Assembly: GCA_024404675.1 (NCBI GenBank)
Contig: JAKSPO010000001.1
Coordinates: forward strand, 1 to 64,000
Reading direction: 5' to 3'
DNA from: Lachnospiraceae bacterium
GTDB lineage: Bacteria > Bacillota > Clostridia > Lachnospirales > Lachnospiraceae
Length of the DNA: 64,000 bases
Shown: positions 3,073 through 23,384 of the stretch, one piece after another
How positions within the stretch are numbered: position 1 is the first letter of the stretch
Layout: each line of letters opens with the position of its first letter
Made by a program: the position numbers and the translations under genes
Notes under the pieces: model-generated
Database searches by the model: none
The model's input: only the letters and a program-made list of their open reading frames with translations
Told to the model about the DNA's origin: nothing

Positions 3073-4353
3073 ATGAAGAGCGATTCCGCTTTCTTATGTA
3101 TTGATCTGAAATCATTTTACGCCTCCGTGGAGTGCGCGGAGCGCCATCTGGATCCGATGACGACCAACCTGGTCGTCGCGGACCCGGAACGCTCGGACAA
3201 GACAATCTGTCTTGCGGTTTCGCCCTCCATGAAGGCGCTTGGTGTGAAAAATCGCTGTCGTGTATTTGAGATTCCGAAGAATATCGAATATATCATGGCA
3301 GAACCCCGTATGCAGAAGTATATCGACTATGCGGCAGAAATCTACGGCATTTATCTGCAGTACATCTCCCCGGAGGACATTCATGTCTATTCAATCGACG
3401 AATGCTTTCTGGATGTTACGGGCTATCGGAAGCAGTACGGGATGAGTGCCCGTGAGCTTGCGATCAAGTTTATGAGCGAGATTCAGGAAAGGCTTGGAAT
3501 CCGTGCCACCTGCGGCATCGGAACCAATTTGTATCTGACGAAGATTGCTCTTGATATTACGGCGAAGCATTCGCCCGATTTCATCGGTGAGCTTGATGAG
3601 GAGACATATCAGAGAACGCTTTGGAACCATAAGCCGATTACGGATTTCTGGCGTATCGGTCCGGGAATATCGCGCAGGCTTGCGGAGCGTGGCATCTATA
3701 CAATGGGCGATCTGGCGCATGCGGACGAGGATATGCTTTATAAGACCTTCGGAATCGATGCGGAGCTTCTGATTGATCATGCGTGGGGGCGTGAGAGTAC
3801 GACCATGAAGGACATCAAGGCATTTCGCTCGAAAACAACCGTATTCAGCTCCGGACAGGTGCTGATGCGCGATTATCGTTTCGACGAGGCGCGACTGGTG
3901 ATGAAGGAGATGGTCGAGGAGCTTTGCCTCAGAATGGTGAAGGGCGAGGTTATGTCGAAGTCGCTTTCGATGTATGTCGGCTATTCTAACGCCTTACATA
4001 TTCCGGGAAGCGGCGGAACCGCGGCACTTCCTGAGGAGACTAACAACGACCGTGACTGGATCGATGCCGTGATGCGTGTATTTGATACCGTAGTGGACCC
4101 GCAGTACCCGATAAGGCGGATGGGACTTTCCTGCAACAATGTCGTGAAGGACACCGGCATTCGCCAGCTGAGCCTTTTTGATACGGCGGAGGAGAGTGAG
4201 GATAAGGCGCGCGAGAATCGTCTGCAGAAGACGGTACTTGCCTTAAAGGAACGCTTCGGGAGCAATGCGTTGTTAAAGGGTCGGGACCTTTCGGAGGGCG
4301 CGACCGCAATCGAGAGAAATAACCAGATCGGAGGACATAAGCGTGGCAAATAA
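3073..4353 (+). CDS. Y-family DNA polymerase (DinB/UvrX-like)
   Basis: This 426-residue protein is a lesion-bypass polymerase. CIDLKSFYASVE near the N-terminus carries the first catalytic aspartate and SIDECFLDV carries the second acidic pair of the palm. Finger and little-finger regions follow. QLSLF at 365-369 matches the beta sliding-clamp binding motif, which supports a functional polymerase. The start has TAGGAGC just upstream. It overlaps the YolD-like gene by 11 bp, the usual arrangement for the UvrX/YolD type in Firmicutes. I saw no GAAC-N4-GTTC SOS box upstream, and the gene may be read from the lipoprotein promoter. The exact subfamily (Pol IV or UvrX) is not settled. Confidence 0.9.
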   Translation: MKSDSAFLCIDLKSFYASVECAERHLDPMTTNLVVADPERSDKTICLAVSPSMKALGVKNRCRVFEIPKNIEYIMAEPRMQKYIDYAAEIYGIYLQYISPEDIHVYSIDECFLDVTGYRKQYGMSARELAIKFMSEIQERLGIRATCGIGTNLYLTKIALDITAKHSPDFIGELDEETYQRTLWNHKPITDFWRIGPGISRRLAERGIYTMGDLAHADEDMLYKTFGIDAELLIDHAWGRESTTMKDIKAFRSKTTVFSSGQVLMRDYRFDEARLVMKEMVEELCLRMVKGEVMSKSLSMYVGYSNALHIPGSGGTAALPEETNNDRDWIDAVMRVFDTVVDPQYPIRRMGLSCNNVVKDTGIRQLSLFDTAEESEDKARENRLQKTVLALKERFGSNALLKGRDLSEGATAIERNNQIGGHKRGK

Positions 4354-20400: not shown

Positions 20401-21138
20401 ATGTCAGGACATTCCAAATTTGCAAACATCAAGCATAAGAAGGAGAAGAACGATGCTGCAAAGGGTAAGGTATTTACCCGTCTCGGTCGTGAGATTGCCG
20501 TTGCCGTTAAGGAAGGCGGTCCGGATCCGAACAACAACAGTAAGCTGAAGGATATTGTTGCTAAGGCAAAGGCCAATAATATGCCGAACGATACGATTGA
20601 GCGTAGCATTAAGAAGGCTGCCGGCGATGCAAATGCCGTTAACTACGAGCACGTTACCTACGAGGGCTACGGTCCGAAGGGTATCGCTATCATCGTTGAG
20701 GCACTTACCGATAACAAGAACCGTACCGCTGCGAACATCAGAAGCGCGTTCACCAAGGGTAACGGAAGCATCGGTGCACAGGGCTGTGTTTCTTTCATGT
20801 TCGATGAGAAGGGCCAGATTATCATCGACAAGGAAGAGTGCGATATGGATCCGGATGATCTGATGATGCTTGCACTGGATGCAGGTGCTGAGGATTTTGC
20901 GGACGAGGAGGATTCTTACGAGATTCTTACCGATCCCGATTCCTTCAGTGCGGTTCGTGAGGCCTTGGAGGCTGCGAAGATTCCGATGCTGCAGGCCGAG
21001 GTAACGAAGCTGCCGCAGACCGAGGTTGAGCTTACCGATGAGCAGGATATTAAGATGTTCAATCGTACGCTTGATCTTCTGGATGATGACGACGATGTAC
21101 AGGATGTATACCATAACGGTATTCTTCCGGAGGAGTAA
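20401..21138 (+). CDS. YebC/PmpR family DNA-binding protein
   Basis: This 245-residue protein matches the YebC/TACO1 family from MSGHSKFANIKHKKEKNDAAKG to the C-terminal domain (EVTKLPQTEVELTDEQ, LDLLDDDDDVQDVYHN). Family members have been described as transcription regulators and, more recently, as translation factors that ease ribosome stalling. AAGAGAGG lies upstream of the ATG. The repeat array begins right after its stop codon. Confidence 0.94.
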   Translation: MSGHSKFANIKHKKEKNDAAKGKVFTRLGREIAVAVKEGGPDPNNNSKLKDIVAKAKANNMPNDTIERSIKKAAGDANAVNYEHVTYEGYGPKGIAIIVEALTDNKNRTAANIRSAFTKGNGSIGAQGCVSFMFDEKGQIIIDKEECDMDPDDLMMLALDAGAEDFADEEDSYEILTDPDSFSAVREALEAAKIPMLQAEVTKLPQTEVELTDEQDIKMFNRTLDLLDDDDDVQDVYHNGILPEE

Positions 21139-21153
21139 GGGGCTGGGGAGCTC

Positions 21154-21686
21154 TTTAGTTTGAAGAAGACTACGTGCGCGAGGGCATCAGGACTCCTCCC
21201 GCTTCGCGGGCCCCTCCTCATGCCAAAGGGCATCAGGACTCTTCCCATACTGCGTATGGGTCCCTCCTTGCTAGTTACAAATTTAGTTTGAAGAAGACTA
21301 CGTGTAGTGCACGGGGGATAAGGAATGCGTGCACGGGGCATCAGGACTCTTCCCATACTAACGTATGGGCCCCTTTGCTAGTTACAAATTTAGTTTGAAG
21401 AAGACTACGTGTAGTGCACGCATATACAATTTCGTCCGTCCCACCGCGTGATAGAATCCCGCGGCAGGACGAACGAATGCGTGCACGTCATAAGAAGGAA
21501 TCTTCCCATACTGCGTATGGGCCCCTTTGCTAGTTACAAATTTAGTTTGAAGAAGACTACGTGTAGTGCACGCATATACAATTTCGTCCGTCCCACCGCG
21601 TGATAGAATCCCGCGGCAGGACGAACGAATGCGTGCACGTCATAAGAAGGAATCTTCCCATACTGCGTATGGGCCCCTCCTTCTTA
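21154..21686. repeat. Array of composite hairpin repeats between yebC and recN
   Basis: Four copies of a block starting TTTAGTTTGAAGAAGACTAC begin at 21154, 21282, 21389 and 21541. Copies 3 and 4 are practically identical for about 136 bp. A full unit holds hairpin A, with an outer arm GTGCACGCAT/ATGCGTGCAC and nested arms TTCGTCC/GGACGAA and CCGCG/CGCGG, and hairpin B, CCCATAC/GTATGGG. Unit links read TTTGCTAGTTACAAA. In copy 2 hairpin A has a short unrelated interior but keeps GTGCACG/CGTGCAC, and hairpin B keeps its arms around a different loop. Copy 1 lacks hairpin A and adds CCCGC/GCGGG. No convincing gene lies inside. The block separates yebC from recN. Confidence 0.9.
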
Positions 21687-21716
21687 TCAATTCCCGGAGA
21701 GAGGGAAAGGTTATTT

Positions 21717-23384
21717 ATGCTTTTAAGCTTACATGTGAAAAATTTTGCCATCATAGATGAGGTCTGGGTGGATTTCGGACCCGGGATGAACATTCTGACC
21801 GGTGAAACCGGTGCCGGCAAATCGATTCTTCTTGGGTCGGTCAATGCGGCATTGGGCGGTAAGGTGAACCGGGAGATGCTTGGCCGAAATGCGGATTATG
21901 CGCTTGCGGAGCTGATTTTTGACTGTGAGAACGAGCGGATTGTATCGCTGCTTCAGGCGCATGACATTCCCATCGAGGAGAATCTGATTATTTCGAGAAG
22001 AATCTCCGATAACGGGCGAAGCATCAGCCGAGTCAACGGTGAGACCGTCAACACAGGCTTTCTGAAAGAGCTTTCCGCGCTTCTTTTAGAGGTGTTCGGG
22101 CAGCACGAGAATCAGACATTGCTTGCCGCGCAGAATCAGCTGGCACTTGTGGACCGTTATGACAAGGAACATGCCGAGCCGCTTCTTACGGAGCTTCGAA
22201 GTGAGTACGGTTTGTATCGGAAAGCGAAGAAGGACTACGAGGAAGCACTTACGCACGGGGAGGGTCTCGCAAGAGAGCTGTCCTTACTTGAGTACGAGCA
22301 TAACGAGATTCAGGCCGCAGCACTGAAAAAGGGCGAGGACGAGGCTTTGGAGGAACGCTATAAGATTCTTTCTAACCGAAACCGTATCGCCGAGGCGGTC
22401 GGAGAGGCCGACCGGGTGATTCATTCGGATTCGGAGGCAGCCTCGGAGCTTATCGGACGAGCACTTCAGAAGCTAAGCCGTGTGCTTATTTATGATGAAA
22501 ATCTTAACAGCATATATGAAGAAATCGAGCAGGTTGAGGAACAGCTGAACGACATCGGCTGCCGCCTGTCCGACTATATGGACAGCCTTGCCGAGGAACC
22601 CGGCGAGCTTACCGAGGTTGAGGAGCGATTGAATCTGATTAATCGCCTCAAAGCCAAATACGGTAAGTCCATTGAAGATATTGTTTCCTATGACAGGTCG
22701 CTTTGCGAAAAGATTGATCGTCTTCAGAATTATGACCGTTATCTTGCCGACAGTGAGAAGCAGCTTTCCGTAATGGAAGCGAAGCTTTCGGGGCTTTGCA
22801 AGAAGCTCGGAACGGTTCGTGCGGAGGCCGCGAAGGCACTCGAGCGAAAGATTACTGAGGCATTGACGGATCTGAATTTCCTCGATGTATCCTTCGAGAT
22901 TCGCTTAGAGCCTGTTTTGATGACGGAAAATGGTACGGAGACCGCAGAATTCTGCATCTCCACGAATCCGGGTGAGCCGATTCGACCGATTTCCAAAATC
23001 GCCAGTGGCGGTGAGCTTTCCAGAATCAGCCTTGCCGTCAAATCCGTTTTCGCCGGTCGCGACGAAATCGAAACCTTGATTCTGGATGAGATCGATACCG
23101 GTGTCAGCGGACGAACCGCGCAAAAGGTAGCAGAGAAGATGGCTAGCATCGCTAAGGAGCATCAGATTCTCTGCATCACACATTTGCCGCAGATTGCTGC
23201 GATGGCCGACGAGCATTTTCTGATAGAAAAGGCAACGGACAACGCGACAACGAAGACGAATGTGACCGCCCTTTCGGAGGAGCAGACCGTTTCGGAACTG
23301 GCAAGAATGCTCGGTGGCGTATCGATTACCGAGTCTGTGCGTAACAATGCAAGAGAGATGCGTATGCTTGCAAAAAAGCGATAA
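21717..23384 (+). CDS. recN: DNA repair protein RecN
   Basis: This 555-residue SMC-like ATPase acts in double-strand break repair. The Walker A motif GETGAGKSIL lies near residue 30, long coiled coils fill the middle (about 150-370), and the C-terminal lobe has the ABC signature KIASGGELSRISLAVK and Walker B LILDEIDTGVSG. The start at 21717 is supported by GAGAGGGAAAGG and the family N-terminus LSLHVKNFAIID; an in-frame extension to 21600 would run into the repeat array. No SOS box is visible upstream. Confidence 0.95.
   Translation: MLLSLHVKNFAIIDEVWVDFGPGMNILTGETGAGKSILLGSVNAALGGKVNREMLGRNADYALAELIFDCENERIVSLLQAHDIPIEENLIISRRISDNGRSISRVNGETVNTGFLKELSALLLEVFGQHENQTLLAAQNQLALVDRYDKEHAEPLLTELRSEYGLYRKAKKDYEEALTHGEGLARELSLLEYEHNEIQAAALKKGEDEALEERYKILSNRNRIAEAVGEADRVIHSDSEAASELIGRALQKLSRVLIYDENLNSIYEEIEQVEEQLNDIGCRLSDYMDSLAEEPGELTEVEERLNLINRLKAKYGKSIEDIVSYDRSLCEKIDRLQNYDRYLADSEKQLSVMEAKLSGLCKKLGTVRAEAAKALERKITEALTDLNFLDVSFEIRLEPVLMTENGTETAEFCISTNPGEPIRPISKIASGGELSRISLAVKSVFAGRDEIETLILDEIDTGVSGRTAQKVAEKMASIAKEHQILCITHLPQIAAMADEHFLIEKATDNATTKTNVTALSEEQTVSELARMLGGVSITESVRNNAREMRMLAKKR

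Follow-up and report, generated by a model that had tools for sequence, protein, structure and literature searches.

A dispersed two-hairpin repeat forms a tandem array between yebC and recN in a Lachnospiraceae bacterium

We found that the interval between yebC (20401-21138) and recN (ATG at 21717) in a 64,000-nt stretch of a Lachnospiraceae genome (the window) holds an inserted array of hairpins (21150..21687, + strand), which is probably a tandem cluster of a dispersed, non-autonomous repeat made up of two hairpins, A and B, that falls in the REP/MITE class and is recognized by its folded shape, more likely as single-stranded DNA (ssDNA) than as RNA. On either strand, the whole array is far more stably folded than its dinucleotide shuffles (z -8.2 and -8.0); it is non-coding, and no transposase is encoded inside it. 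It is punctuated by a 23-nt block (TTTAGTTTGAAGAAGACTACGTG) that occurs in four exact copies (at 21154, 21282, 21389 and 21541), and the window still holds only these four when up to three mismatches are allowed, compared to none in 100 shuffles. An earlier note, made from the sequence alone, had described four units of block, hairpin A and hairpin B; the four blocks stand, but they are accompanied by three hairpins A and five hairpins B, since the first unit has no A.

All parts of the array lie on the + strand. The first block (21154..21176), with no hairpin A after it, leads into hairpin B copy 1 (21182..21225), which has the inner hairpin CCCGC-TTC-GCGGG and an outer stem of 10 positions with one C.C mismatch (GGCATCAGGA/TCCTCATGCC), and then into B copy 2 (21228..21273; inner hairpin CCCATAC-TGC-GTATGGG). 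The second block (21282..21304) is followed by a short form of hairpin A (21307..21334), read directly, and by B copy 3 (21336..21384), with the inner loop TAAC. In this A the arms GTGCACG/CGTGCAC enclose a 14-nt interior, so that, as the earlier note had it, copy 2 retains the arms around a different interior. The third block (21389..21411) precedes the long form of hairpin A (21414..21486), with outer arms GTGCACGCAT/ATGCGTGCAC, a 5' bulge, and an inner stem with an extended apical hairpin, and B copy 4 (21489..21538); the fourth block (21541..21563) precedes a second long A (21566..21638), identical to the one before it, and B copy 5 (21641..21688), in which the 10-bp outer stem is intact (ATAAGAAGGA/TCCTTCTTAT). 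Hairpin B thus consists of a 10-bp outer stem, an internal loop of 5/4 nt and an inner stem (CCC..GGG), often capped by a GNA triloop on the strand opposite yebC and recN. The arms that had been described as kept while the loops differ are the inner ones, and the 10-position outer stem is present besides; it is preserved only in the first and last window copies and lost in three of five, the lead-in of the following block occupying the place of the outer 3' arm in copies 2, 3 and 4; this loss counts against our reading. The remark that size and nesting go beyond a simple REP was a fair one, since a single B has the size of a REP and the array combines A with B. The last two units, described as nearly identical and duplicated, proved to be 100% identical over 152 bp (21362-21513 and 21514-21665, together 21362..21665), and we conclude that this tandem duplication is recent.

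The array is absent from all 12 congeners, out of 18 inspected, with a readable yebC-recN spacer. In three close congeners (G001, G016 and G021), in which we read the spacer, the yebC stop and the recN start are 33-38 nt apart, compared to a gap of 578 nt in the window genome, and these three have the stretch before recN in common; in G007, G012 and G018 a distance of 4-14 nt separates the matched segments of yebC and recN. Thus, the short spacer in close congeners identifies the array as a lineage-specific insertion. One other congener (G002) also has a longer spacer. A search for empty sites among the pattern-found loci yielded four pair rows, none of them clean. In two more distant congeners (G013 and G014; L240, L243), a different insert rich in hairpins occupies the yebC-recN gap.

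The locus is not unique, as a genome-wide search revealed ten B copies at three sites in the same genome; one of the other two precedes an apparent rnr gene, and the other adjoins what looks by eye like a tRNA gene. Among 22 genomes of the genus, a model (R1) built from 22 hand-picked B hairpins detected B in 8, the window genome included, at E <= 0.01; among 150 family genomes, each from a different genus, it did so in 12 at E <= 1e-4. The 150-genome scan used stricter filters and scored at most 42 candidates per genome, so that a copy number of 42 is a lower bound. A core pattern matched at least 119 stretches from at least 77 assemblies in a collection of named genomes; among these 77, 70 are titled Lachnospiraceae, Clostridiales or like genera, and the others are titled Treponema (four), Mogibacterium, Muribaculaceae and Bacteroides (one each). 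Ten carrier genomes searched whole gave 2 to 71 matches each. These further copies, the empty orthologous site and the relatives in many genera support the idea, one of several in the earlier note, of a mobile or dispersed miniature element. No viral contig searched matched the core pattern, and the plasmids searched gave no match either. One record deposited as an unverified bacteriophage (MT839694.1; L307) does have B, but to judge from its ORFs (the end of clpC, radA, thyX) it looks like a piece of bacterial chromosome, and we rejected it as a phage copy. The open-licence papers searched did not describe a repeat of this kind in Lachnospiraceae. B-like hairpins stand in Treponema-titled records at L103, L128, L146, L148 and L209, and the hairpin of L103 is the apex of a long palindrome. 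The records titled Muribaculaceae and Bacteroides hold B at L200 and L205; L200 aligns at 75-78% with a Lachnospiraceae locus, so that its title may be wrong.

The stems of these hairpins covary, so that the refuting condition set in the earlier note, units confined to this locus and lacking base-pair covariation, does not hold. In the seed alignment (A1), 92% of cells were paired compared to 79% in shuffles, and double-changed cells numbered 42 compared to 12.5. Double-changed cells were likewise in excess among 109 matches (100 distinct; 192 compared to 59 in shuffles) and in the genus set (60 matches, 42 distinct; 74 compared to 22), although these last two comparisons rest on alignments that had been fitted to the model and are biased in its favour. 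A cleaner test of pairing used 114 distinct combinations from the pattern scan, in which the outer six base pairs lie outside the search pattern: on average 5.06 of 6 were paired, compared to 3.49 with permuted arms (maximum of 200 permutations 3.73), and the arms comprised 51 different sequences. At positions 1-6, pairing was found in 93, 79, 92, 104, 105 and 104 of the 114 combinations. The drop from 104 at position 6 to 24 at position 7 implies that the stem has a sharp length of 10 bp. Positions 1 and 2, beside AGGA, are often mismatched, which counts against our reading. The conservation of loop letters in L091-L209 is a product of the search pattern and is no evidence. At a site between two sequences read by eye as tRNA genes, the third arm pair shows compensatory types, being C-G in G018, A-T in G016 and G.T in G007, if these are the same insertion, and each of these copies is also mismatched at position 1 or 2; at a second tRNA site the A stems are altered yet paired, with a bulge in G007 (by eye). 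The pair changes at these tRNA sites may stem from conversion by other copies.

Hairpin A and hairpin B form a genuine composite, in which A is a second, 5'-bulged hairpin that precedes B in a minority of sites. By folding, 31 of 126 sites showed a 5'-bulged hairpin in the 75 nt before B, compared to 16 with one downstream and 4-11 in five rounds of shuffling; some of the downstream hairpins serve as A for the following unit, and four of the upstream ones are distant from B. A sequence-based test located A upstream of B in 25 of 128, 10 of 22 and 10 of 31 sites (shuffled means 3.6, 0.3 and 0.8) and on the mirrored side in only 5, 4 and 1 sites. The end of the A stem lies 0-8 nt, mostly 2-6 nt, from the B arm. 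A MAFFT alignment of hairpins A was too poor for counting and was left out. Among 26 distinct A bulges of 6-8 nt, 21 start with A and 13 end in AA. By eye, the plan of hairpin A is the same in G146 and G126, and its apical part varies among the G146 copies, as the earlier note had seen in the window. The 103 of 128 pattern-found B sites without a recognizable A count against our reading.

We examined 96 sites for their genomic context, and found 15 in crude ORFs and 81 in intergenic gaps, of which 54 are tandem, 20 divergent and 7 convergent (background 427, 97 and 86). Because 20 sites are divergent and only 7 convergent, we dropped the idea that the hairpins are terminators. Fourteen sites lie within 300 bp of a tRNA, a count made without a control, and some copies lie within operons, for instance between ORFs read as rpsJ and rplC, and between others read as transporter permeases. 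The ORFs between neighbouring copies at five loci (L210, L166, L129, L100 and L157) read as ordinary genes, with no transposase. Similarly, in a Pfam comparison of 133 neighbouring proteins (169 found, 154 after a length cut, then 140, of which 7 were left out), no transposase was among the 25 families listed of 157 matched, and the top family matched at most 5 of the 133 proteins. For the A-B units of the window genus, no terminal inverted repeats could be delimited and no target duplication was seen; the lack of a target duplication, like that of a mobilizer in these comparisons, counts against our reading. In one other genome (G066), however, B is the apex of a long near-palindromic, high-copy MITE with inverted-repeat ends like TAGGCANTTGCGAAA (L210-L229), from which we took 20 stretches holding 21 copies that match the MITE core. 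Flanks of 10-13 bp are duplicated at a constant place in 6 of these 21 copies; the control is unclean, as 27 of 200 mismatched copy pairs also have at least 10 letters in common, and the argument is therefore carried by the constant position of the duplicated flanks. Thus, unrelated elements can carry B or include it as a part.

We considered that B might be an ordinary GTAG-tagged REP family moved by a RAYT/Y1 transposase; the earlier note had listed a search for a TnpA-REP-like protein among its checks. The hairpin is of REP size, its stems vary in a complementary fashion and its loops are short, as described for REPs in PMC3733652; GTAG or GCAG stands at the foot of some copies; and the genome has one RAYT-like gene. 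However, GTAG and GCAG each occur at the 5' foot of the 10-bp stem in only 11 of 135 cases (22 of 135 together) with no conserved column there, the sole conserved flank of the stem being an A on its 3' side (99 of 135). The RAYT-like gene (~315 aa; L053, G000:C4:12537-12872) is surrounded by a different palindrome, GGTCCCTTGGGGACGGGG, on both flanks, and a scan of 30 Y1 loci, with ~1.5 kb of flank on either side as far as the contig extends, found no B. Nor does Y1 track B: in the 150-genome family sample it is present in 8 of 12 carriers compared to 80 of 138 non-carriers, and there was no Y1 match in the copy-rich G146 (at least 42 B copies) or in G062, G063, G064 and G067 (4, 19, 23 and 16 copies). 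This reading is thus largely refuted and very improbable, and a TnpA-REP-like link is not supported. We also considered a passive origin of the pairing, in which template switching within palindromes copies one arm to the other and no factor reads the fold. Correction of quasi-palindromes by template switching is known, and the tandem duplication points to active slippage or recombination at the array. However, pairing ends sharply at 10 bp, and the asymmetric internal loop and the A bulge stay uncorrected, which makes this explanation quite unlikely.

An alternative that we judge unlikely, though less so than the previous two, is that A-B is a structured RNA, transcribed from the strand that tolerates G-U and acting as a small RNA or as an element in mRNA processing or stability, like REP hairpins in transcripts. 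The covariation of the stems agrees with it, as do the copies within operons, such as that between the rpsJ- and rplC-like ORFs, and the occurrence of G(CTTG)C in 16 of 116 loops. Moreover, mismatches on the + strand are A.C in 59 cases compared to G.T in 21 (by assemblies 34 to 15, p 0.009); the minus strand is therefore the wobble-tolerant one, and its excess of G.T over A.C in this wide set is what an RNA would show. The genus set alone is weakly reversed (17 G.T and 11 A.C on the + strand), which counts against our reading. The minus strand also runs along the gene orientation in 36 of 54 tandem gaps (compared to 18). Among 84 loci it coincides with the majority coding strand in 52 (52 to 32, p 0.04), and among 106 with the G-rich strand in 63 (63 to 43, p 0.06). 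This orientation bias is weak, and the favoured strand in the window is antisense to yebC and recN; both points count against our reading. Against an RNA, we found nothing over threshold with Rfam in the window (the best array match, at E 0.62, is far below its threshold) and only tRNAs in ten relatives; divergent gaps account for 20 of the 81 intergenic sites, convergent gaps for only 7; the 40 loop types listed include C(GNRA)G 3 times and no C(TTCG)G; and presence is patchy, with tandem arrays and both orientations, and no consistent orientation to genes. The triloops are mostly GNA on the minus strand (47 of 64, with 3 TNC, among 116 loops of all sizes), compared to 27 of 220 strand counts in background hairpins, and the loops of hairpin A are C(GNA)G in 16 of 30. 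GNA loops on G-C stems are extraordinarily stable as DNA minihairpins, according to PMC4686876. The GAA loops could partly mirror common descent, which counts against our reading. In DNA folding of three window hairpins the minus strand was better each time (-12.1/-11.6, -11.7/-10.4 and -31.3/-25.9 kcal/mol). Thus, the strand, loop and folding data weakly favour folded ssDNA over RNA.

Returning to the two-hairpin repeat read as folded ssDNA, we infer recognition by shape, since the stems change freely but mostly pair, and the bulges and internal loops are of near-fixed size. The repeat would spread non-autonomously through some Lachnospiraceae chromosomes. Its arrival at the yebC-recN gap followed the divergence of this lineage from the nearest congeners, and unequal exchange or slippage then perhaps doubled the 152-bp units. 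An enzyme or host factor acting in trans may recognize the folded single strand by its shape, the recognized strand being most likely the one opposite yebC and recN, as ssDNA exposed in replication. We also entertain, tentatively, the more specific idea of a family recognized almost purely by shape, with free stem letters and fixed stem lengths and unpaired bases, which would act as ssDNA of one strand with GNA caps, would be served by an enzyme unrelated to Y1/RAYT, and could either stand alone or form the apex of palindromic transposons to which it is unrelated.

The A-B repeat works like a REP or MITE, has neither the tag nor the transposase link of classical REPs, and is under clear constraints of shape. 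Integron attC sites provide a known example of folded-strand recognition with unpaired landmark bases. In Proteobacteria, small dispersed palindromes are well studied, and there the tag is present, plus, for the GTAG kind, the RAYT transposase. B resembles the REP/BIME sequences of the GTAG and CGTC superfamilies, as these are portrayed in PMC3733652, in being a short, dispersed palindrome that is mainly intergenic (of 96 sites, 81 are not in crude ORFs) and occurs both singly and in tandem groups, with short loops, G-T pairing, and stem residues that alternate in a complementary way. In contrast to REPs, B has no conserved GTAG/CGTC tag at its foot and no RAYT link, has a 10-bp stem with a 5/4 internal loop, and is joined at part of its sites to the bulged hairpin A. 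Moreover, according to PMC3733652, REPs lie mostly in unidirectional and convergent gaps, whereas B does not avoid divergent gaps. The ends of IS200/IS605 elements, as described in PMC6006769, are similarly hairpins recognized as folded strands with unpaired landmark bases, but B has no conserved tetranucleotide guide at its foot, and we found no enzyme for it. The A-B repeat is small, dispersed and non-autonomous like MITEs, but for its units in the window genus we could delimit no terminal inverted repeats, and we saw no target duplication. The BOX elements of pneumococcus are modular, made up of boxA, boxB and boxC. Like them, the array belongs to a Gram-positive genome and is put together from small hairpin modules, and it is set apart by taxon and, by description, by its modules. 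In genera of the Lachnospiraceae, a widespread family of the gut and rumen, we find a REP-like life style without a conserved tag or a RAYT link, in which the stems drift while remaining paired. The B family makes recognition by structure only a testable idea, and raises the question of what moves REP-like elements that have no tag.

Two other repeats stand beside copies of B. One is a variant hairpin (AGGACTCCGTC...GCCACCT) whose outer arms resemble those of B but whose internal loop differs; it lies beside B in L025, L032, L017 and L039, and in L017, L025 and L032 it sits between sequences that read as tRNA genes. A second family of tandem repeats, with a period of 53 bp and the motif GTGGTACTGAATTC, occupies positions 1-289 of the window and also lies beside the C2 copy of B (L008, about 3520-3700, G000:C2), and the arms of B at C2 (GTACCAAGGA/TCCTTGGTAC) have GTACCA in common with this 53-bp repeat.
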